A DNA stretch of 27,567 nucleotides from the IMG/VR virus record IMGVR_UViG_3300036945_000462, positions 1 to 27,567 of that record. The stretch is one strand, 5' to 3'. The translations under genes were made by a program, and so were the position numbers. Positions 8,020 through 27,567 of the stretch are shown here, one piece after another. The stretch comes from a virus. The notes below the pieces were generated by a model. It saw only the letters and a list, made by a program, of their open reading frames with translations, searched no databases and was not told the DNA's origin. Positions within the stretch are counted from its first letter, which is position 1. Every line of letters begins with the position of its first letter.

Positions 8020-10687
8020 CGCGGTTGCAGACATTGCGATTGGAATCACGGCGGACATATCGCCGCTCATGCGGGAAACCGCGCGGGCGGGCAGGGCTGT
8101 CAGCAAGTTCGGCGCTGACATGTCGCGCGATGTTGGCAACGGCGCACGGGGCGTACAGGGCGCGTTAGGGCAGGCATCGGTTGCGGCAGCGTCATTCGGT
8201 AAGGCTTTTGTTGGTGGCCTTGCAGCGGGCGCTATATCCGCTGGCTTGGCGGCAGTCACGACGAACATTCGCGCAAGCATCGGCGCTATTGCCGACATGG
8301 CCGACGAGGCGCAGCGGATTGGCATGACGACTGACGAGTTCCAGGGCCTTAGCTATGGAATGAAGCTTGCCGGGGTGGCGCAGGAAGAATTTGCGTCTGG
8401 CCTGTCCAAGTTCGTTGACAACATCGGCGACGCGGCCAGAGGCACGGGCAAGCTGAAAGATGTACTGGAAGAAAACGGCATTGCTTTGCGCGATGTTGAC
8501 GGCGGCGTGCGCAACACCAGCGAACTGTTGGCCGACTTCGCAGACATGATCCAGCGGGTTCCCGACGAGGCCTCGCGCATGTCGTTGATAACTGAGGCGT
8601 TCGGCAAGGGCGGCAAGGCAATGACCTTGGCACTGGCCGGGGGCGCGGCGGGCCTCGCTGAAATGGAGCAAGCGGCGCGCGATGCCGGGGTTGTGCTGGA
8701 TAGCAGCGTGGTTGCCAAAGCGGCGGAGCTTGACGACAAGTTCGACGCACTGACGGCGCGGGTTCGCACGTTCTTCCAGGAGGTCGCGGTGGGCGCGGCG
8801 GGCGCGGCTGATGATCTGGCGGGGATGTTCGCGCCCGGTGTTGCAGACAACCTGCTGGGCGGGCTTGACGCGGATGGCCTTCTGGGCGTGGATATAGCGC
8901 AACGGTTGCGCGACAATCCGGCCATGATGGCGGCGGCGCGGGATGCTTTGCTGGATTACGGCGCGACGCTGAAAGTGATCGGCGGCGACGTTGACACCTA
9001 TGCCGACGCCTTGGGCACCTTGGCCGACAATCTGGACATGGCTGGGGCATATGACCAAGCGGACGCAATCCGCGCGCTTGGGGTGCAACTGGTCGAGGCG
9101 CGGCGCGGGCTGGATGATGGCAGCGTAAGCGGGGTGCAATATGCGGCCACGCTGGAAGGCATCAAGGCCAAGATCAATGAAATCATGGTTCCCGTGTCCA
9201 AGCTACAGGGCGCGCAATTCAAATCCGCTGTGGCATCGGCGGTTGATTTCAACGATGCGTTTGACCGGCTGAGTGCTGGCATGGCGCTTGCCTACAATCA
9301 CCTGCTGGCAGTCACCGGCTTGACCCCGACAATGGCGGGTTTGGCGCGTGAAGCAGACGAACTGAGCGCGGCGTTTACCGCAACGGAACGGCAGTTGCGG
9401 GCGGTTGGCGAGACTGGCGCGGCGGATCTGATGCGCGACTTGGCGCAGGAAGTCGGCGACGTTTCCCAAAAATTCCGCGATGGCAGCATCAGCGGCGATG
9501 AAATGCGCAGCAAGCTTGACCTGTTGACGCAAGGCGCGGGATTTGCCGTTGACAGTCTGGGCGACATTGACGGCGTGACATTTGATAACGTCAAGACCGG
9601 CATTACAGGCGTATTTGACTATCTGGTGGGTCTGGCAGCGCAGGCGGCACGGACCAAGGCGGCACTTGCGGCGGCTACATCACCCGCCACCATTGCGGGC
9701 CACGGCGGGCGGGCGGAGCCTGGCGAGTATGTCAGCCCCGTTGCGCCGAAAACCTCCATCACCCCCAAAATGCGGGATGTGGACTTTGATCACGGCGCCC
9801 CCGACACCCCCGACACCCCCGACACCCCCGACACCCCCGACACCCCCGACGCACCATCAAGCGGCGCAGGTTCGTCCGCACCCGACCTTGACGCGCTGCT
9901 GACCAGCCTTGAGACGGAAAAGGAAATCCTGGACGGTTGGTACGCTGAAAGCCAAGCCATGCTGGCAAACGCGACCGATGCGCAGCTTGCGCAGATCGGC
10001 GGTCGGCATGAGGCAATCCAGCGGCTTGAGCAAGAACACCAAGAGCAACTGGCGGCAATCTTGGCGGATGGCGGCGCGATAGACGTGGAAGCCGAGACTG
10101 CACGGGCTGACGCGCAGCTTGCCGCGCGGGTCGCACAAATCCAATCTATGACCGACGCAGAACTGGGCGCGCAACAAGGGCGGGCGGCGGCGCTGGAGAA
10201 AGCGGAGCGCGAACACCAAGAGCAACTGGCGGCTATTCGTGGCATCGGAACGCAGCAAGCCTTGGGCAACACGGCAAGCTTTTTCAACAGCATGGCAACG
10301 ATTGCCCAAGCCGGGGGCGACAAGGCGCTGAAAGCTTACCGTGCATTCGCGGCGGGTGAGGCGCTGATTAACGCATATCGCGCGCAGGCGCAGGTGTTGG
10401 CAGACCCTACCGTGCCATTCTGGGGCAAGTTCGCAGCGGTCGCGTCAATCGCTTCTGCTGGCATGGGACTTGTGACCGCCTTGAAAGGACCGAGCGGGGG
10501 GGCATCGGGCGGCGGCAAGGCATCGGGCAGCACGGCATCAGCGGGCGCGTCATCGGGGGGGCCTATGTCGGTCGCCAACATCACCTTGAACGGCGATACG
10601 TTCAGCCGCTCCAGCATCGAAGATTTGTTCAAGCAGCTAAATGACGGTCTGAAATCGGGCCGCACAATCAATCTGGTGCGTGCATGA
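8012..10687 (+). CDS. Tail tape measure protein
   Basis: With 891 residues this is the longest gene in the window and the tape measure by position and composition. It sets tail length and is ejected ahead of the DNA. The N-terminus (residues 8-40) has the ITADISPLMRETARA start common in alphaproteobacterial tape measures. A hydrophobic glycine-rich segment (about 61-83) is followed by MADEAQRIGMTTDEFQGL-type sequence (about 96-113), characteristic of this group. Long Ala-rich helices fill the middle. A Pro-Asp-Thr repeat (597-613) forms a hinge before two copies of an EHQEQLAAI helix (10034-10060 and 10211-10237). The C-terminus has hydrophobic and Gly/Ser-rich stretches before a final strand-helix. 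No peptidase or lysozyme domain is apparent. Confidence 0.92.
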   Translation: MADAVADIAIGITADISPLMRETARAGRAVSKFGADMSRDVGNGARGVQGALGQASVAAASFGKAFVGGLAAGAISAGLAAVTTNIRASIGAIADMADEAQRIGMTTDEFQGLSYGMKLAGVAQEEFASGLSKFVDNIGDAARGTGKLKDVLEENGIALRDVDGGVRNTSELLADFADMIQRVPDEASRMSLITEAFGKGGKAMTLALAGGAAGLAEMEQAARDAGVVLDSSVVAKAAELDDKFDALTARVRTFFQEVAVGAAGAADDLAGMFAPGVADNLLGGLDADGLLGVDIAQRLRDNPAMMAAARDALLDYGATLKVIGGDVDTYADALGTLADNLDMAGAYDQADAIRALGVQLVEARRGLDDGSVSGVQYAATLEGIKAKINEIMVPVSKLQGAQFKSAVASAVDFNDAFDRLSAGMALAYNHLLAVTGLTPTMAGLAREADELSAAFTATERQLRAVGETGAADLMRDLAQEVGDVSQKFRDGSISGDEMRSKLDLLTQGAGFAVDSLGDIDGVTFDNVKTGITGVFDYLVGLAAQAARTKAALAAATSPATIAGHGGRAEPGEYVSPVAPKTSITPKMRDVDFDHGAPDTPDTPDTPDTPDTPDAPSSGAGSSAPDLDALLTSLETEKEILDGWYAESQAMLANATDAQLAQIGGRHEAIQRLEQEHQEQLAAILADGGAIDVEAETARADAQLAARVAQIQSMTDAELGAQQGRAAALEKAEREHQEQLAAIRGIGTQQALGNTASFFNSMATIAQAGGDKALKAYRAFAAGEALINAYRAQAQVLADPTVPFWGKFAAVASIASAGMGLVTALKGPSGGASGGGKASGSTASAGASSGGPMSVANITLNGDTFSRSSIEDLFKQLNDGLKSGRTINLVRA
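9800..9850 (+). repeat. Nine-base tandem repeat coding (Pro-Asp-Thr)n
   Basis: The unit CCCGACACC occurs five full times from 9800 to 9844 and ends with CCCGAC at 9850. It codes a run of Pro-Asp-Thr triplets in the tape measure protein, an extended flexible linker. The copies are identical at the base level, so the array probably changes length by slippage; each unit adds three residues and keeps frame. Confidence 0.95.
10034..10237 (+). repeat. Paired 27-base direct repeats in the tape measure gene
   Basis: The bases 10034-10060 and 10211-10237 are identical over their first 23 positions and differ in the last four. Both read EHQEQLAAI in frame, within longer similar helices (IQRLEQ- before the first copy, LEKAER- before the second). 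The copies lie 177 bases apart (59 residues), so they look like a duplicated coiled-coil segment. Confidence 0.85.
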
Positions 10688-21287: not shown

Positions 21288-21523
21288 GCATCTTTGACCC
21301 CGCCATATTTGACGGCGCGATATTTGATGTCGTGTTTGCAGACACGCCTGATTTTGAAATCCCGGCGCGGTACGGCCTGACGATCATTCCTGCGCGCTAC
21401 GGTTGGCCCATCATTGCGGCGCAGTACGGTTTGAGCATCGCCCCGGCAAGCTACGGCTGGCCCGAAATCCCCGCCGAATACGGCCTGACAATAATCCCGG
21501 CAGAATGGAAGGAAAAACCATGA
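21284..21523 (+). CDS. Small protein made of 9-residue repeats
   Basis: The 79-residue protein has a start with three near copies of I-F-D-x-x (IFDPA, IFDGA, IFDVV), then five 9-residue repeats over residues 26-70, as IPARYGLTI, IPARYGWPI, IAAQYGLSI, APASYGWPE, IPAEYGLTI, plus a partial sixth. Consensus is I-P-A-x-Y-G-(L/W)-(T/P)-I, with L/T and W/P alternating, so the real period may be 18. Such a pattern suggests a regular beta-structure. The FDPAIFD start occurs in small phage tail-associated proteins I recall, of unknown role. The start overlaps its upstream neighbour as ATGA and its stop overlaps the next gene. Confidence 0.72.
   Translation: MSIFDPAIFDGAIFDVVFADTPDFEIPARYGLTIIPARYGWPIIAAQYGLSIAPASYGWPEIPAEYGLTIIPAEWKEKP
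21359..21508 (+). repeat. 27-base tandem repeat coding the 9-residue units
   Basis: Five in-frame units of 27 bases run from 21359 to 21493, with a partial sixth to about 21508. They share TACGG at the Tyr-Gly codons but differ elsewhere, mostly at third positions. The copies are therefore old and kept for protein structure rather than recently amplified. Confidence 0.85.
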
Positions 21524-22797: not shown

Positions 22798-23090
22798 TAG
22801 CAGCCATTGCGCTTGCACCAAGCTTTGCCTTTTCTTGACTTCAACCACCTCTCAAACTTGGCATCACTCCGCTCCAGAAAATCCAGAAGTTCATAGAGGT
22901 GACCCGCGCTTAGGCTGATGTATGAATAGCCTTGCGTGTTGATCTGGATTTCATCCAGGTACTGCCAAGACACCTCATAGGTATCGCACTCCGAATCTTC
23001 TAAGTTCATCTTGGCGCGAAACCCCGGATCTTCCTCGGCTGGGCCGGTGTGTTCATTTGGGGCAAATGGCCCTTGGATAACTTGGTTCAC
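22797..23090 (-). CDS. Small gene after the integrase, unknown
   Basis: The 97-residue protein starts at a GTG overlapping the integrase stop (GTGA), so it is translationally coupled to int. It begins with an acidic, extended part (residues 1-33) and continues with a strand-helix core (YSYISLSAGHLYELLDFLERSD) and a short basic end with two cysteines. No family is recognised. Position between int and attP is that of small recombination helper or regulator genes, but this is inference. Confidence 0.7.
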   Translation of the reverse strand: MNQVIQGPFAPNEHTGPAEEDPGFRAKMNLEDSECDTYEVSWQYLDEIQINTQGYSYISLSAGHLYELLDFLERSDAKFERWLKSRKGKAWCKRNGC

Positions 23091-24088
23091 TTCACACTCC
23101 TGACTGTTCCAAACTCCAAAGCCCCAGCGGCCTTGGATAGGTGTTGCGGGGAAAACCTGGCATAGACAGACGCCGTGATCTGCACATTGCTATGCCCGAG
23201 ATACTGGCTGATTTCATCCATCGGCACCCCGGCCTCGGCCATATGCACGGCGGCGGAATGGCGCAGCGTATGCAGCGTCACCCCGCGCAATCCCGCATTG
23301 CCCACAGCCGTCATAAAGCCCCGCCTGATGCTCTTGACCGGGCCGCTTGCCCATTCCACCACCCAAGGCGACAAGGCCGCTTGGCGGGCCTGTAGCAGCG
23401 CGGCGCGGAGGGTATTGTTGATCGGCACAATCGCCCGACCTTTGCGCGGGCCGATCTGGTCACGGCGCAGGTTCACTTGGCCGCGTTCAAGGTCCACCCT
23501 GTCCCATGTCAGATCGAGGACGGCAGACACCCGGCCCGCCGTGGTCAGCATCAAGAGAATCGCCAGCCGGATATGCGGTTCGCAATCGGCGGCAAGCAAG
23601 ACGGCGACTTCATCCCGTGTCAGATATCGGTCTTTCGGCGCGGGCTTCGAAGGGCGTTCGATATGCGGCGCACGGTCGATCAGGCGGGCCTTGGCAGCCC
23701 ATGACAGGCAGGTGCGCAGGTGGCCTAGTTCCGTCCAGACTGACCCCGGCTTGATGCCAAGTTTGGCGCGGTCCTTGGCATAGCCCCGGCAATGCGCCAC
23801 CGTGATCTGATCCGGGCGTAGCGCGCCGAATACCGCGCAGATCGGCTTGCCACTTGAACGCATGTTCTTCTCAACCGGACGGCCTTTGCGGTCCATCAGA
23901 TAGGCTTCCCAGAGCGATGACACGCTTTGCCCTTGCGCGGATACCGTTTCGCGCCGGATGATGTCTATGGCCTCTCTCTCGGCTTCCTTGGCCGTGAGTG
24001 CATCAAGACGATAGCGCCGCCGCTTGCCGTCATCTGTCCATGTGACGACAAAGCGCCCGTTGAGCCTGCCGATCCGATATTCTGACAT
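23087..24088 (-). CDS. int: Tyrosine-family site-specific integrase
   Basis: This 333-residue recombinase would integrate the phage at the tRNA-Val site and, with Xis, excise it. Catalytic residues of the family are present: Arg186 (TTAGRVSAV), Lys216 (PRKGRAI), His273 and Arg276 (TLHTLRH), His299 (LGHSN) and the nucleophile Tyr309 (SVYARF). The N-terminal about 50 residues form a small strand-rich arm-binding domain, and residues 55-140 the core-binding helices. GGAGGA (24095-24100) stands six bases before ATG 24088, which I prefer to the longer frame starting at 24199. The Xis-like gene overlaps the first 41 codons in another frame. Confidence 0.94.
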   Translation of the reverse strand: MSEYRIGRLNGRFVVTWTDDGKRRRYRLDALTAKEAEREAIDIIRRETVSAQGQSVSSLWEAYLMDRKGRPVEKNMRSSGKPICAVFGALRPDQITVAHCRGYAKDRAKLGIKPGSVWTELGHLRTCLSWAAKARLIDRAPHIERPSKPAPKDRYLTRDEVAVLLAADCEPHIRLAILLMLTTAGRVSAVLDLTWDRVDLERGQVNLRRDQIGPRKGRAIVPINNTLRAALLQARQAALSPWVVEWASGPVKSIRRGFMTAVGNAGLRGVTLHTLRHSAAVHMAEAGVPMDEISQYLGHSNVQITASVYARFSPQHLSKAAGALEFGTVRSVK

Positions 24089-24270
24089 TCGTATTCCTCC
24101 ACCGCGTCCAGCGTGATCCGAAACATGCGACCAACGCGGAAATGACGCAACCGCCCTTGTATGCAGAGTTGGCGCACTGTTTCCGATGACACCAGCCATC
24201 GGTCCGCCAAGGTTTCCAGGGTGAACGGGTCAGCCGCCCGTTGAATGCGCTGTAGGTCGGGGGCGCTCAT
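23965..24270 (-). CDS. xis: Excisionase-like helix-turn-helix protein
   Basis: This 101-residue protein is upstream of int in the same operon. Residues 15-62 (FTLETLADRWLVSSETVRQLCIQGRLRHFRVGRMFRITLDAVEEYE) match in layout the MerR-like winged helix of phage excisionases: a helix-turn-helix followed by a GR-F-VG--FRI wing. It would bind attP and direct excision. Ribosome site GGAGG precedes ATG 24270, and the start is coupled to the Lar-like stop (ATGA). The last about 40 residues (Ser/Gly-rich, basic end) overlap int by 124 bases and look unstructured. Confidence 0.78.
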   Translation of the reverse strand: MSAPDLQRIQRAADPFTLETLADRWLVSSETVRQLCIQGRLRHFRVGRMFRITLDAVEEYECQNIGSAGSTGALSSHGQMTASGGAIVLMHSRPRKPRERP

Positions 24271-24884
24271 GGCTTGGCCTCCGTGAACGGGGCGAGGGCG
24301 GCGCGGTAGTTGTCTAGGGCTGCGGATGTATCGGCAAGGAAGTCGTCAAATTCCGCATCCATTATGCGCCTATCATTGACAACATCGTCGGCAGCTTTTG
24401 CCAACCCATCCCCCGCCGTTACCACCGCCTCAAACTGGGCAATGCGGGCAGTCAGGCGCAGGACTTCGGCGGTGTCGCGGCGGTTCCATGCGGCAACCAA
24501 CTGATCGGGGTTCTGGTCCGCCATGCGAATATGGCTTGGACATTGTGTTGCCGGGGCATCGCACTCGATCACATATTCAGGGTTCATAACAATCCACCCG
24601 TTTATGTAGTCATCGCATGACATTCTGACTTCACCACCGCAAAACGGACACGGCAGCAGCTTTTCAATTTGCGCGTTGTCCATCATTCCCCCCCCTGCGA
24701 CTTGACCAGATTGCACATGGATCATCGTCCCGCTCATGTCCGAGACTTTCAGGGCCTTTGCGATTTCCGCAATGGCATTTGCATTTGCCTCGGCGGCCTT
24801 GGCGAGGGCAACCATAGCTTTGGTCGCGCCCTTGCTGACTTTGGGGCCGTGCATCGCGTTTCCGGTAATGGTCAGGTTTTTCAT
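24267..24884 (-). CDS. Lar-like restriction alleviation protein with an N-terminal extension
   Basis: From ATG 24884 (AAGAGG six bases upstream) the protein has 205 residues. The middle carries the Lar signature: LLPCPFCGGEVRM, then acidic CD with a cysteine pair further on and AAWNRRD (about residues 75-140). Lar of Rac relieves EcoKI-type restriction; this zinc-ribbon family is frequent in phage early regions, often with unproven function. The N-terminal about 65 residues (ATKAMVALAKAAEANANAIAEIAKAL) form a separate helical part, joined through a run of eight Gs (24688-24695). The C-terminal helix has no named family. An earlier in-frame ATG at 24908 overlaps the previous stop. Confidence 0.72.
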   Translation of the reverse strand: MKNLTITGNAMHGPKVSKGATKAMVALAKAAEANANAIAEIAKALKVSDMSGTMIHVQSGQVAGGGMMDNAQIEKLLPCPFCGGEVRMSCDDYINGWIVMNPEYVIECDAPATQCPSHIRMADQNPDQLVAAWNRRDTAEVLRLTARIAQFEAVVTAGDGLAKAADDVVNDRRIMDAEFDDFLADTSAALDNYRAALAPFTEAKP

Positions 24885-24904
24885 GTTTATCCTCTTTGTG
24901 TCTG

Positions 24905-25108
24905 TCATTTCGCGGCGTCCAGCTCGGCAAGGACGGCGCGGCCAAGGTCGGTGAGCTTTGGGTCGGGGAATTTGCCAAGTAGGCAGACGCTGTGACGATG
25001 CTCAAATATCTCCGCAGACCTATAGGACTGCCAACTGCATCCACTCGGATCACGCAGCGCCCGCACCTGCGCCGGGGTCAGCTTCTTGGCGATTTCAGCG
25101 GGGGTCAT
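24905..25108 (-). CDS. Small early protein, unknown
   Basis: The 67-residue protein starts at ATG 25108, six bases after GGAGAG. It reads MTPAEIAKKLTPAQVRALRD, followed by a short CSWQSYRSAEIFEHRH part and KLTDLGRAVLAELDAAK. The AEIAKKLTPAQ-RAL and LTDLGRAVL segments look like winged-helix elements of a MarR-type small DNA-binding protein and are common in small phage proteins. No function can be given. A longer frame to 25342 would be open but lies over the 25212-25895 gene and is not supported by a ribosome site. Confidence 0.75.
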   Translation of the reverse strand: MTPAEIAKKLTPAQVRALRDPSGCSWQSYRSAEIFEHRHSVCLLGKFPDPKLTDLGRAVLAELDAAK

Positions 25109-25211: not shown

Positions 25212-25895
25212 TCATTCCACCGCCGCCTGATCTGCCGCGCGCTTGGCCTCGGCTTCTGCGGCTGCGAGTTGGTCGGGGGTGGGGTCTGTGATCGGCGGCA
25301 GGCCAAACGGATCGTCGGCAATGGCCGCGTCTGCGTCCGCAATGATCTTCTTCAGTTCATCGGTAACGGTCAGGCCAGCAGCGCGCCCGGCCTTGCCATC
25401 GGGCGAATTCCACCATTGCACAAAGGCTTCCTTGCCGCGACGGGCTGCAACCTTGGCAAGGGCGGGGTAGTCGGTGGGCGGGGCGACCGGGTCGGGCGCT
25501 TTAGCCGCCACCAGCTTCTTGATCGTGACAGGGCGGCGAACCTGTTTCGATTCCGCCGTGATGGTGCGCATGTCGTTCTCGATATGGCTCAACGCCCGAA
25601 TGCGAATGCCGCCAACCTCAAGCCCGCCCCACTTCACTTTGGGGTCGAGGTAAAGCTGCACAGACCGGCCCGGATAGACGGACGTGTCATCGCCCCATGC
25701 CTCCATCAAAATGCGGCCGGTCGTCTTGCACGTGCGCCAGACCTTGGCGCTGCCCTGAAAGCTGATCGATACGGGCTGTTCAGTTCCAGGCATGATCTTG
25801 ACGCCCGTGATGGTGATGGTCATGTCACCGGCTATCAGGTCCAGTGCGTTGATCTGGTCGCTCTTGGGGGCCAGTGCGGCTGCGAAATCGTTCAT
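25212..25895 (-). CDS. Nuclease-partner phage protein, possible ssDNA-binding
   Basis: This 227-residue protein lies directly after the YqaJ-like nuclease and overlaps it (TGATG). The core (residues about 20-120) is strand-rich: LIAGDMTITITGVKI, PGTEQPVSISF, then GRILMEAWGDD, YPGRSVQLYLDPKVKWGG and VGGIRIRALSHI. I recall this pattern from proteins next to phage exonucleases; function unknown, an OB-fold single-strand DNA-binding or recombination-partner role is plausible. Residues 150-227 form a disordered-looking Pro/Ala-rich tail with a short QWWNSPDGKAG part. The tail may be an interaction region. Confidence 0.78.
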   Translation of the reverse strand: MNDFAAALAPKSDQINALDLIAGDMTITITGVKIMPGTEQPVSISFQGSAKVWRTCKTTGRILMEAWGDDTSVYPGRSVQLYLDPKVKWGGLEVGGIRIRALSHIENDMRTITAESKQVRRPVTIKKLVAAKAPDPVAPPTDYPALAKVAARRGKEAFVQWWNSPDGKAGRAAGLTVTDELKKIIADADAAIADDPFGLPPITDPTPDQLAAAEAEAKRAADQAAVE

Positions 25896-26599
25896 CAGTA
25901 TAGCTCCTGAATTTGGCGGCGTTCGGTCGGGAAAAGGCGGGCATCGCTTGCCACGGCATCGCGGTAAGCATCGATCACGGCGGCAACCTTGGCCTCAAAT
26001 GCGGCGGCGGCTTCGAGGATGGCGGACTGGACAGCATCGTCGGGGTAGACGCGGATCACGACCATCGGCAGCCCGCCCGAATAGCTGATGAAGTCCAGCC
26101 ATGACCGTTCGCTGACCAGCAGCCCGGTCTGGCATTGCAGCATGTAATCAACTGGGATCGTGCCAGCGGCGACACACTCGGCGATGGTCTGGATCTGGAA
26201 CTTTTGCAGGCGGCTCTTGCACTCGATCAGGCCGTCATTGCCCACAAGCCCATCCGGCGAATATCCGATGGTGAAGCCCCACCGCGAATTGGTGATGAAG
26301 CCCATCGTGGTGACCGGCGCGCAGTTCTTTTCATAGATTAGACGCGCATCAACTTCGTCTGTCATGCCTCGCAGCATGTCGTCGCTGATGTAGGTGGGTT
26401 CGACATGGCCGGACAGCCTTTGCGCGGCCAGCTCGTAGACGTGCGCCCGTGTGGCATCGTTCGCCGCGACCTTGAGCGTCGGCGTGAGGATCTTTTTCAT
26501 CTCGCTGGCAGTCAGCAGGCCAGACCGGGCGGCAAGCCACGATTCAGACCCCTGATCAAGGTCAGCATGGTAGCGGATTTGGGGCGCTGCGCCGTCCAT
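25895..26599 (-). CDS. Lambda-exonuclease/YqaJ-like recombination nuclease
   Basis: This 234-residue protein would resect linear DNA for single-strand annealing recombination. Features of the family are the early QGSESWLAARSGLLTASE (WL-AR-G--TAS, residues 17-33), the catalytic YSPDGLVG (Asp116), LIECKSR (Glu126, Lys128) and YMLQCQTGLLV (Gln155, Gln157). The chosen ATG at 26599 overlaps the preceding stop as TGATG; an in-frame GTG at 26602 is possible. It is part of the same leftward operon as int. No annealing protein of the Bet type is visible in the window, though the gene at 25212-25895 may assist. Confidence 0.9.
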   Translation of the reverse strand: MDGAAPQIRYHADLDQGSESWLAARSGLLTASEMKKILTPTLKVAANDATRAHVYELAAQRLSGHVEPTYISDDMLRGMTDEVDARLIYEKNCAPVTTMGFITNSRWGFTIGYSPDGLVGNDGLIECKSRLQKFQIQTIAECVAAGTIPVDYMLQCQTGLLVSERSWLDFISYSGGLPMVVIRVYPDDAVQSAILEAAAAFEAKVAAVIDAYRDAVASDARLFPTERRQIQELY

Positions 26600-26877
26600 C
26601 ACATCACCACCGGCAAGGTCATGACGTAGATCACCATGACGATCACACCAACGGTCGCGGCGATCAGGGCCACGCTGGCAGCGATATCAATCGCGCGGTC
26701 CAAGCCGCTTTTCTGCGTGTCCTTGCGCTTCCAACCGATCGGATCAGTGTAGCCCAGCAGGTCACGCGCAGCCTTCTGCACTTCGGGGGGCGTTTTGGCA
26801 TCTGTCAGCGCGTTGCGGGCGGCGCGGTGGCCGGGGATCGGTGCGTTCGCCTCGGTGGTGTTCATGCGGTGGGTCAT
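26599..26877 (-). CDS. Small C-terminally anchored membrane protein
   Basis: The 92-residue protein has a soluble N-terminal part (about residues 1-55, with TDAKTPPEVQKAARDLLGYTDPIGWKRKDTQKSG) and one hydrophobic segment at the C-terminus (about 64-88). Start ATG 26877 lies next to GAGGTG and shares ATGA with the end of the pentapeptide-repeat gene. Small tail-anchored early proteins may act in superinfection exclusion or membrane association of replication, but nothing here shows which. No family recognised. Confidence 0.68.
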   Translation of the reverse strand: MTHRMNTTEANAPIPGHRAARNALTDAKTPPEVQKAARDLLGYTDPIGWKRKDTQKSGLDRAIDIAASVALIAATVGVIVMVIYVMTLPVVM

Positions 26878-27567
26878 GGCATCACCTCAATCGTCGGTTT
26901 TGCAGGGCACAGTTCAATCGTGGCGAAGATCCACGCCTTGTATTTTGACCACCAAGCTAAGGCTTTTGCCCCGTCCATTGCGCGGATATGAGCGTCTGAA
27001 AATGCCGCCCAATCGGCCAGGGGATGCCGCTGGCATCCGATCTGCATCACTTCGGCGGTGTAGGTGATCGGGTAGGTGTCAATCTGGATGCACTTGACCC
27101 AGTCATTGATGCCGCTGGCACCGTCAAGGCTGGCACCGACAATGCTGGCACGGTCAAGGCTGGCACCGACAAGGCTGGCACGGTCAAGGCTGGCACGGTC
27201 AATGCTGGCACCGACAAGGCTGGCACCGACAAGGCTGGCACGGTCAAGGCTGGCACCGTCAAGGCTGGCACGGTCAAGGCTGGCACCGACAAGGCTGGCA
27301 CGGTCAAGGCTGGCACCGACAAGGCTGGCACGGTCAAGGCTGGCACGGTCAATGCTGGCACCGACAAGGCTGGCACCGACAAGGCTGGCACGGTCAAGGC
27401 TGGCACCGACAAGGCTGGCACGGTCAAGGCTGGCACCGACAAGGCTGGCACGGACAAGGCTGGCACGGTCAATGCTGGCACCGACAAGGCTGGCACCGAC
27501 AAGGCTGGCACGGTCAAGGCTGGCACCGTCAAGGCTGGCACGGTCAAGGCTGGCACGGTCAAGGCTG
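26874..27567 (-). CDS. Pentapeptide-repeat protein, 5' end outside the window
   Basis: The reading frame is open from the right edge to the TGA at 26874-26876, so the start is missing. It reads 30 or so pentapeptides of the A-S-(L/I)-(D/V)-(R/G) type, the A(D/N)LXX class that folds as a right-handed square beta-helix (four pentapeptides per turn). A non-repeat C-terminus of about 80 residues follows: CIQIDTYPITYTAEVMQIGCQRHP, ADWAAF and KALAWWSKYK, a tail I recall from phage pentapeptide proteins. Its function is unknown. Known pentapeptide proteins such as MfpA and Qnr bind gyrase by mimicking DNA; whether this one does is unproven. Other frames through the repeat are open only because the units lack stops. 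The stop overlaps the next gene as ATGA. Confidence 0.82.
   Translation of the reverse strand, partial: SLDRASLDRASLDGASLDRASLVGASLVGASIDRASLVRASLVGASLDRASLVGASLDRASLVGASLVGASIDRASLDRASLVGASLDRASLVGASLDRASLDGASLDRASLVGASLVGASIDRASLDRASLVGASLDRASIVGASLDGASGINDWVKCIQIDTYPITYTAEVMQIGCQRHPLADWAAFSDAHIRAMDGAKALAWWSKYKAWIFATIELCPAKPTIEVMP
27115..27567 (-). repeat. 15-base tandem array, about 30 copies
   Basis: From about 27115 to the window edge the 15-base unit GGCACCGACAAGGCT (plus strand) repeats without a break and with only a few variants: two base pairs (D/V, R/G codons) and one (L/I) change. Four units make 60 bases and one predicted coil of the beta-helix. The order cggtcaatg-ccgacaagg-ccgacaagg-cggtcaagg recurs at 27196, 27346 and 27466, which points to larger-unit copying. 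Confidence 0.95.

Follow-up and report, generated by a model that had tools for sequence, protein, structure and literature searches.

The phage protein described here has A-x-L-x-x units and a predicted quadrilateral beta-helix in common with the pentapeptide repeat proteins (PF00805, Rfr beta-helix; MfpA, QnrB1, AlbG, HetL; Beta1 solenoids). Its C-terminal domain of about 80 residues, which lies in the same frame as the repeat array, is shared with two phage protein families of unknown function, phrog_31567 and phrog_37032, and the library entries of both are silent on function, array turnover and selection. A change by whole units has affected the array in the pentapeptide gene of the Caulobacter phages RW and GB2A. 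According to the available text of the report on these phages, their genomes were assembled with HGAP4, and within 62 kb the differences consist of two SNPs, two C and, in the pentapeptide gene, a 375-bp deletion (PMC11053796). The available text contains no discussion of array evolution, and the C-terminal domain of the RW/GB2A protein is divergent or different from that of the family studied here. Nor does the pentapeptide gene appear in the main text of the paper on the Barba phages. We found no description of phage pentapeptide arrays with concerted evolution and positive selection in the open-access literature, subscription literature being outside the scope of the search. The fold family and the phage families are known; what appears to be new is the way in which the array evolves.

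The window, i.e., the whole stretch of 27,567 nt that was analyzed, carries genes for terminase, portal, capsid, head-tail connector, tape measure, and tail fibre on the plus strand. Judged by its integrase gene as a marker, it derives from a temperate tailed phage. The tape measure gene harbors a perfect 9-nt tandem repeat (CCCCCGACA, 5.9 copies, positions 9798-9850), and imperfect 15-nt and 27-nt tandem repeats are present downstream of the structural genes at 21289-21439. The array, its gene and the neighboring genes are listed in Table 1.

Table 1. Positions in the window of the pentapeptide array, its gene and the neighboring genes.
Feature	Position	Strand	Basis
Pentapeptide units ASL/I-D/V-R/G, 29 complete	27120..27554	-	Tandem Repeats Finder; PF00805 E 9.6e-28; AlphaFold
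5'-truncated pentapeptide gene, whole	26874..27567	-	open frame to stop at 26874; homologue L014:5428-6249
C-terminal capping domain SGINDWVKCIQIDTYPITYTAEVMQIGCQRH...W..F.D..I..MDG..AL.WW.KYK, family hallmark	26877..27119	-	phrog_31567, phrog_37032
92-aa gene, next in operon	26599..26877	-	phrog_12936 match weak, E 0.004
YqaJ/RecE-type recombination exonuclease gene	25895..26602	-	PF09588 E 4.8e-12; phrog_149 E 2.9e-25
phrog_11517 gene, unknown function	25212..25895	-	E 1.6e-40
Lar-like restriction alleviation gene	24267..24908	-	PF14354 E 2.5e-7; phrog_599
Excisionase-like HTH gene	23965..24270	-	HTH_17 E 5.6e-7; excisionase phrogs
Tyrosine integrase gene	23087..24199	-	PF00589 E 1e-21; phrog_1 E 6.3e-58

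A first-pass annotation of this DNA had described about 30 consecutive 15-base units of two alternating types that reach the window edge. The 29 complete 15-nt units and a further partial unit of 13 nt at the contig edge (27555-27567) confirm this count, and the IMG/VR contig indeed stops inside the array, so that only the units up to the edge are counted and the full length lies beyond. Tandem Repeats Finder reported the array at 27114-27567 with a period of 15, 30.3 copies, 89% matches, 0% indels and a score of 684; the score was 754 at periods of 30 and 45. Six kinds of units were present (ASLVG 11, ASLDR 10, ASLDG 3, ASIDR 3, ASLVR 1, ASIVG 1), which by their final two residues are 13 DR, 12 VG, 3 DG and 1 VR. 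Only three nucleotide sites vary across the units (CTT/ATT, GAC/GTC and CGT/GGT), and not a single synonymous difference was found. Adjacent units were identical in 11% of cases versus 26% in shuffles (z -2.1). The proposed alternation is thus a tendency rather than a rule. The clearest periodicity was seen at a lag of 8 (z 3.5) and of 10 units (z 2.8), as expected from block duplications.

The start codon and the N-terminal domain of the window gene lie past the contig end, while the complete homologue in L014, the closest relative, encodes 273 aa. The window frame scored 95.8 bits against PF00805, for which the cut-off is 20.2. Its C-terminal domain carries the MQIGCQxH motif of the family, with the G, C, H, W and M residues that are invariant in 51 relatives. 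AlphaFold modeled the array as a continuous, regular beta-helix (mean pLDDT 90.3, mostly >90) with one bridge per five residues, and a right-handed quadrilateral beta-helix is thus predicted. Foldseek matched the modeled rod to pentapeptide proteins of solved structure (E values as low as 1.6e-12), the nearest folds being MfpA, QnrB1, AlbG and EfsQnr and also designed Beta1 solenoids. The model of the C-terminal domain was confident as well (pLDDT 91.4), and this domain had no solved relative by sequence or by fold. On our best reading, the protein has a cap at either end of a right-handed pentapeptide beta-helix, the C-terminal one being conserved and made of beta structure plus a long helix.

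When viral contigs were searched with the C-terminal domain, 159 relatives were retrieved, and the loci of 80 of these were fetched. Nine further relatives were retrieved from bacterial genomes, mostly of Rhodobacterales, with five in one Roseovarius chromosome. Complete members of the family consist of an N-terminal segment (e.g., FTAEIDC...SVKLGLAVxWAV), roughly 8-47 units and the C-terminal domain. The five prophage copies in the Roseovarius MAG (OX638333.1; L104-L107, L109) are near-identical, most of them about 46-49 kb apart, and they span the record origin, resembling a tandem prophage array. No second record of the phage in the window was found with a 30-nt probe from the C-terminal domain. 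A 30-nt unit-pair probe matched only L171:10423-10847 (IMGVR_UViG_3300028805_000262), an otherwise different phage that has this unit pair exactly in common with the window. The pentapeptide protein of L171 terminates in DUF5758 (PF19062), and this locus also stops inside the array. The 30-nt identity reflects either convergence or an exchange of units between unrelated phages.

The mean pairwise nucleotide distance between units was 0.085 in the window and 0.30-0.65 in 22 cellular arrays, taken from pentapeptide proteins of bacteria in the same family as Shimia marina. This agrees with the earlier statement that ordinary pentapeptide proteins are more diverged. The uniformity of the array is unusual in comparison to cellular proteins but not within its own phage family, in which the median of 81 arrays was about 0.12 and the window ranked 10th of 81. 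Near-identical units are normal for this family, although the arrays of some members are old and diverged (L014, L108, L110). L014 has unit kinds in common with the window (e.g., GCC AGC ATT GAC CGT), and in its array 21 of 30 units are distinct and the within-array pS is 0.30. Between the C-terminal domains of the window and L014 we determined a pS of 0.304 and a pN of 0.046, whereas pS was 0 among the 29 units of the window. It follows that the array in the window was homogenised after the split from L014 or much faster than this split. These values support the suggested recent expansion, or a recent homogenisation, of the array in the window.

Differences in unit number were found in four groups of relatives, three of them distant, the phage of the window itself not being among them. 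The Caulobacter phages RapA, BL94 and JessA have 27, 22 and 20 units, respectively, of three kinds and in differing order. The N-terminal 135 nt are identical in these three phages, with at most one difference across the last 288 nt, and between RapA and JessA the caps do not differ at all, with no more than a handful of mismatches in 6.5 kb. The arrays of RW and GB2A comprise 47 and 22 units, a clean difference of 25 units that accounts for the reported 375-bp deletion (PMC11053796), and their regular units show no silent variation. Of 60 records of Rheinheimera Barba phages, 44 have 22 units and others have 14, 15, 18, 19, 21 or 26, as counted by a search for joined flanks, which are 99.8% identical, with some spans being off-frame. 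A frameshift splits the gene in 4 of 12 examined Barba arrays (L094, L099, L101, L103), which may be due to sequencing errors in the repeats or to broken genes with real loss of function. Close by, the Barba phages encode another repeat protein, gp043 with about 30 NTGxx units (annotated PF01469; L006:1245-2222, L007:1249-2226), which also differs at a few units between isolates. The Roseovarius prophages have arrays of 23 or 7 units: three of the five copies have the same 23 units, one copy shows a D to N change in a single unit, and in the fifth an in-frame deletion of 261 nt with a 3-nt CCT microhomology has taken away 16 units together with a portion of the N-terminal domain.

Among these relatives, near-identical alleles thus differ in how many repeats they have and in the order of these repeats, as is the case in PRDM9 and TAL-effector arrays. 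The expected variation of unit number between isolates was therefore observed in all four groups. We consider rapid turnover of the array in the family highly probable on these comparisons, but it is not universal, as the orthologous arrays of L108 and L110 appear to be under purifying selection (pS 0.33, pN 0.07).

The changes between units were strongly biased towards nonsynonymous substitutions. pN exceeded pS in 63 of 71 arrays, and pS was 0 in 23 of the 71. The mean pN at the exposed codons i-1, i+1 and i+2 was 0.195, 0.302 and 0.263, respectively, and 0.050 and 0.017 at the buried codons i-2 and i. For 29 independent arrays (one per cluster, C-terminal domains <75% identical) minimal codon paths yielded 138 nonsynonymous and 14 synonymous changes, compared to 46 synonymous changes expected from a neutral model with a kappa of 2; the changes per array are few, and arrays from different phages are perhaps not fully independent if units move, as L171 may indicate. 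A synonymous count of 14 or lower occurred in none of 200,000 neutral simulations, and 132 of the 138 nonsynonymous changes affected exposed codons. As in PRDM9 and TAL-effector arrays, the excess of nonsynonymous changes is thus found at exposed residues within homogenised units. The C-terminal domains of the same genes served as a control. Their median pS was 0.63 and their median pN 0.20, with pN exceeding pS in only 1 of 538 pairs, which shows purifying selection on the C-terminal cap. Since silent changes accumulate normally in the C-terminal domain, codon bias is not a ready explanation for their shortage in the arrays. Residues i+1 and i+2 were linked above other pairs, with a normalised mutual information of 0.40 compared to 0.15 after shuffling; this linkage is incomplete, and a strict two-residue module was rejected. 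Altogether, diversifying selection on the surface of the array is likely.

We read the feature as the repeat portion of an early accessory protein of the phage. We assign a probability of about 0.55 to the whole reading, in which a capped beta-helix carries an array that turns over by recombination and a surface that is under diversifying selection. Unequal recombination between units would turn the array over. This recombination may be RecA-mediated or of the phage annealing type, and the neighboring YqaJ exonuclease could contribute to it. Diversifying selection would keep the exposed residues varied, because the surface of the rod would bind a changing partner. The main competing explanation is neutral turnover, in which slippage and unequal recombination homogenise the units, any unit number is tolerated and the exposed residues are merely unconstrained. 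Unit counts without a preference for whole coils, the loss of the frame in some variants and the conservation of buried next to free exposed positions fit this explanation. Relaxed constraint predicts, however, a pN near pS and not the 138 to 14 changes that were observed, and silent changes are normal in the C-terminal domain of the same genes. We, therefore, regard neutral turnover as rather unlikely, though it deserves more weight than any of the following alternatives. An assembly artefact, by which collapsed or misjoined repeats of the metagenome would have produced a near-uniform array at a contig end, would agree with the end of the contig inside the array and with exact internal repeats of up to 115 nt, the longest having its two copies 10 units apart. 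The unit order in the window hinges on the assembler resolving repeats up to this length, and order and number of the units in the window remain unsure. The array is, however, in frame with its own C-terminal domain, and L014 carries the same unit kinds inside a contig of 39.8 kb. Arrays of the same type are also present in a chromosome-level assembly and in the phages reported as assembled with HGAP4, RW and GB2A, whose assemblies we take to be long-read data. An artefact as the source of the array is thus very improbable.

The confinement of the variation to few exposed codons would also be in agreement with targeted hypermutation, in which a diversity-generating retroelement writes the variable codons. 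The varying bases in the window are C/A, A/T and C/G and thus not adenines alone, as adenine-directed mutation would require, array length and order change as well, and no reverse transcriptase was found among the genes scanned on the partial contig; we consider this mechanism hardly credible. A DNA-mimicking inhibitor of gyrase of the Qnr/MfpA kind was also considered, and we rate it as improbable, slightly less so than an artefact. The modeled fold is shared with MfpA, QnrB1, AlbG and EfsQnr, and a topoisomerase would be a fitting target for the product of an early gene beside genes of replication and recombination. The surface of Qnr and MfpA is strongly acidic, while the 29 units of the window contain 16 Asp and 14 Arg, the Arg facing out, with a net charge of -2 and a family median of -0.13 per unit. 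These values speak against the DNA-like surface that had been suggested. The charged and neutral units had further been expected to form bands of charge on the faces of the helix. When the units were assigned to four faces, face 2 was mostly DR and face 3 mostly VG, while faces 0 and 1 were mixed. As banding is only partial, a charged-band DNA mimic is not supported. The unit counts showed no clear preference for whole coils (mod 4), and face periodicity across the family was marginal (lags 4 and 8, t about 1.8). The C-terminal domain, which is without a solved relative, differs from that of the gyrase inhibitors, and length and surface of the array are free to vary, unlike in a mimic tuned to one conserved enzyme.

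If the capped and recombining rod does bind a partner, the leading candidate, which we propose tentatively, would be a protein that serves the host in DNA metabolism or defence and is met early in infection. The position of the gene would fit to this. The ATG of the adjacent 92-aa gene overlaps its stop codon by 4 nt (ATGA). The pentapeptide gene adjoins DNA polymerase I in the Caulobacter phages and lies near a DNA polymerase in an Escherichia phage, and in Manatee Spring phages its neighborhood includes a gp157-like or ParB-like gene. In all of these phages and in the window, the gene lies in an early or DNA-metabolism region. In SR18, which is related to the Caulobacter phages, the position after DNA polymerase I is taken by an unrelated 67-aa gene (L175:3097-3300) and the pentapeptide gene is absent, which indicates that the gene is dispensable there.

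Pentapeptide proteins of phages are common and mostly filed as unknown. Given its fast turnover and the nonsynonymous excess at exposed residues, this family is probably engaged in a conflict with a host partner or in adaptation to one. RapA and JessA, RW and GB2A, the Barba isolates and the Roseovarius prophages provide ready model pairs for effects of array content in near-identical phages.

In comparison to other PF00805 proteins, the family differs by near-identical DNA units, a number and order of units that vary between isolates, phage-specific caps and little net charge. PRDM9 zinc-finger minisatellites and TAL-effector repeats are homogenised coding repeats of variable number and order, with differences at contact or exposed residues. 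The phage array would resemble them by analogy and in its mode of evolution only; its fold and sequence are unrelated to theirs, and we claim neither shared ancestry nor a nucleic-acid code. A more far-reaching and rather doubtful idea is that the protein is a modular recognition rod built by recombination, in which the exposed residues and the order of near-identical modules set partner specificity. If this were true, reshuffling of the modules while the phage grows would allow a lineage to track a changing host target or defence factor, and the rod would represent, on a beta-helix scaffold, a prokaryotic counterpart to the arrays of PRDM9 or TAL effectors.
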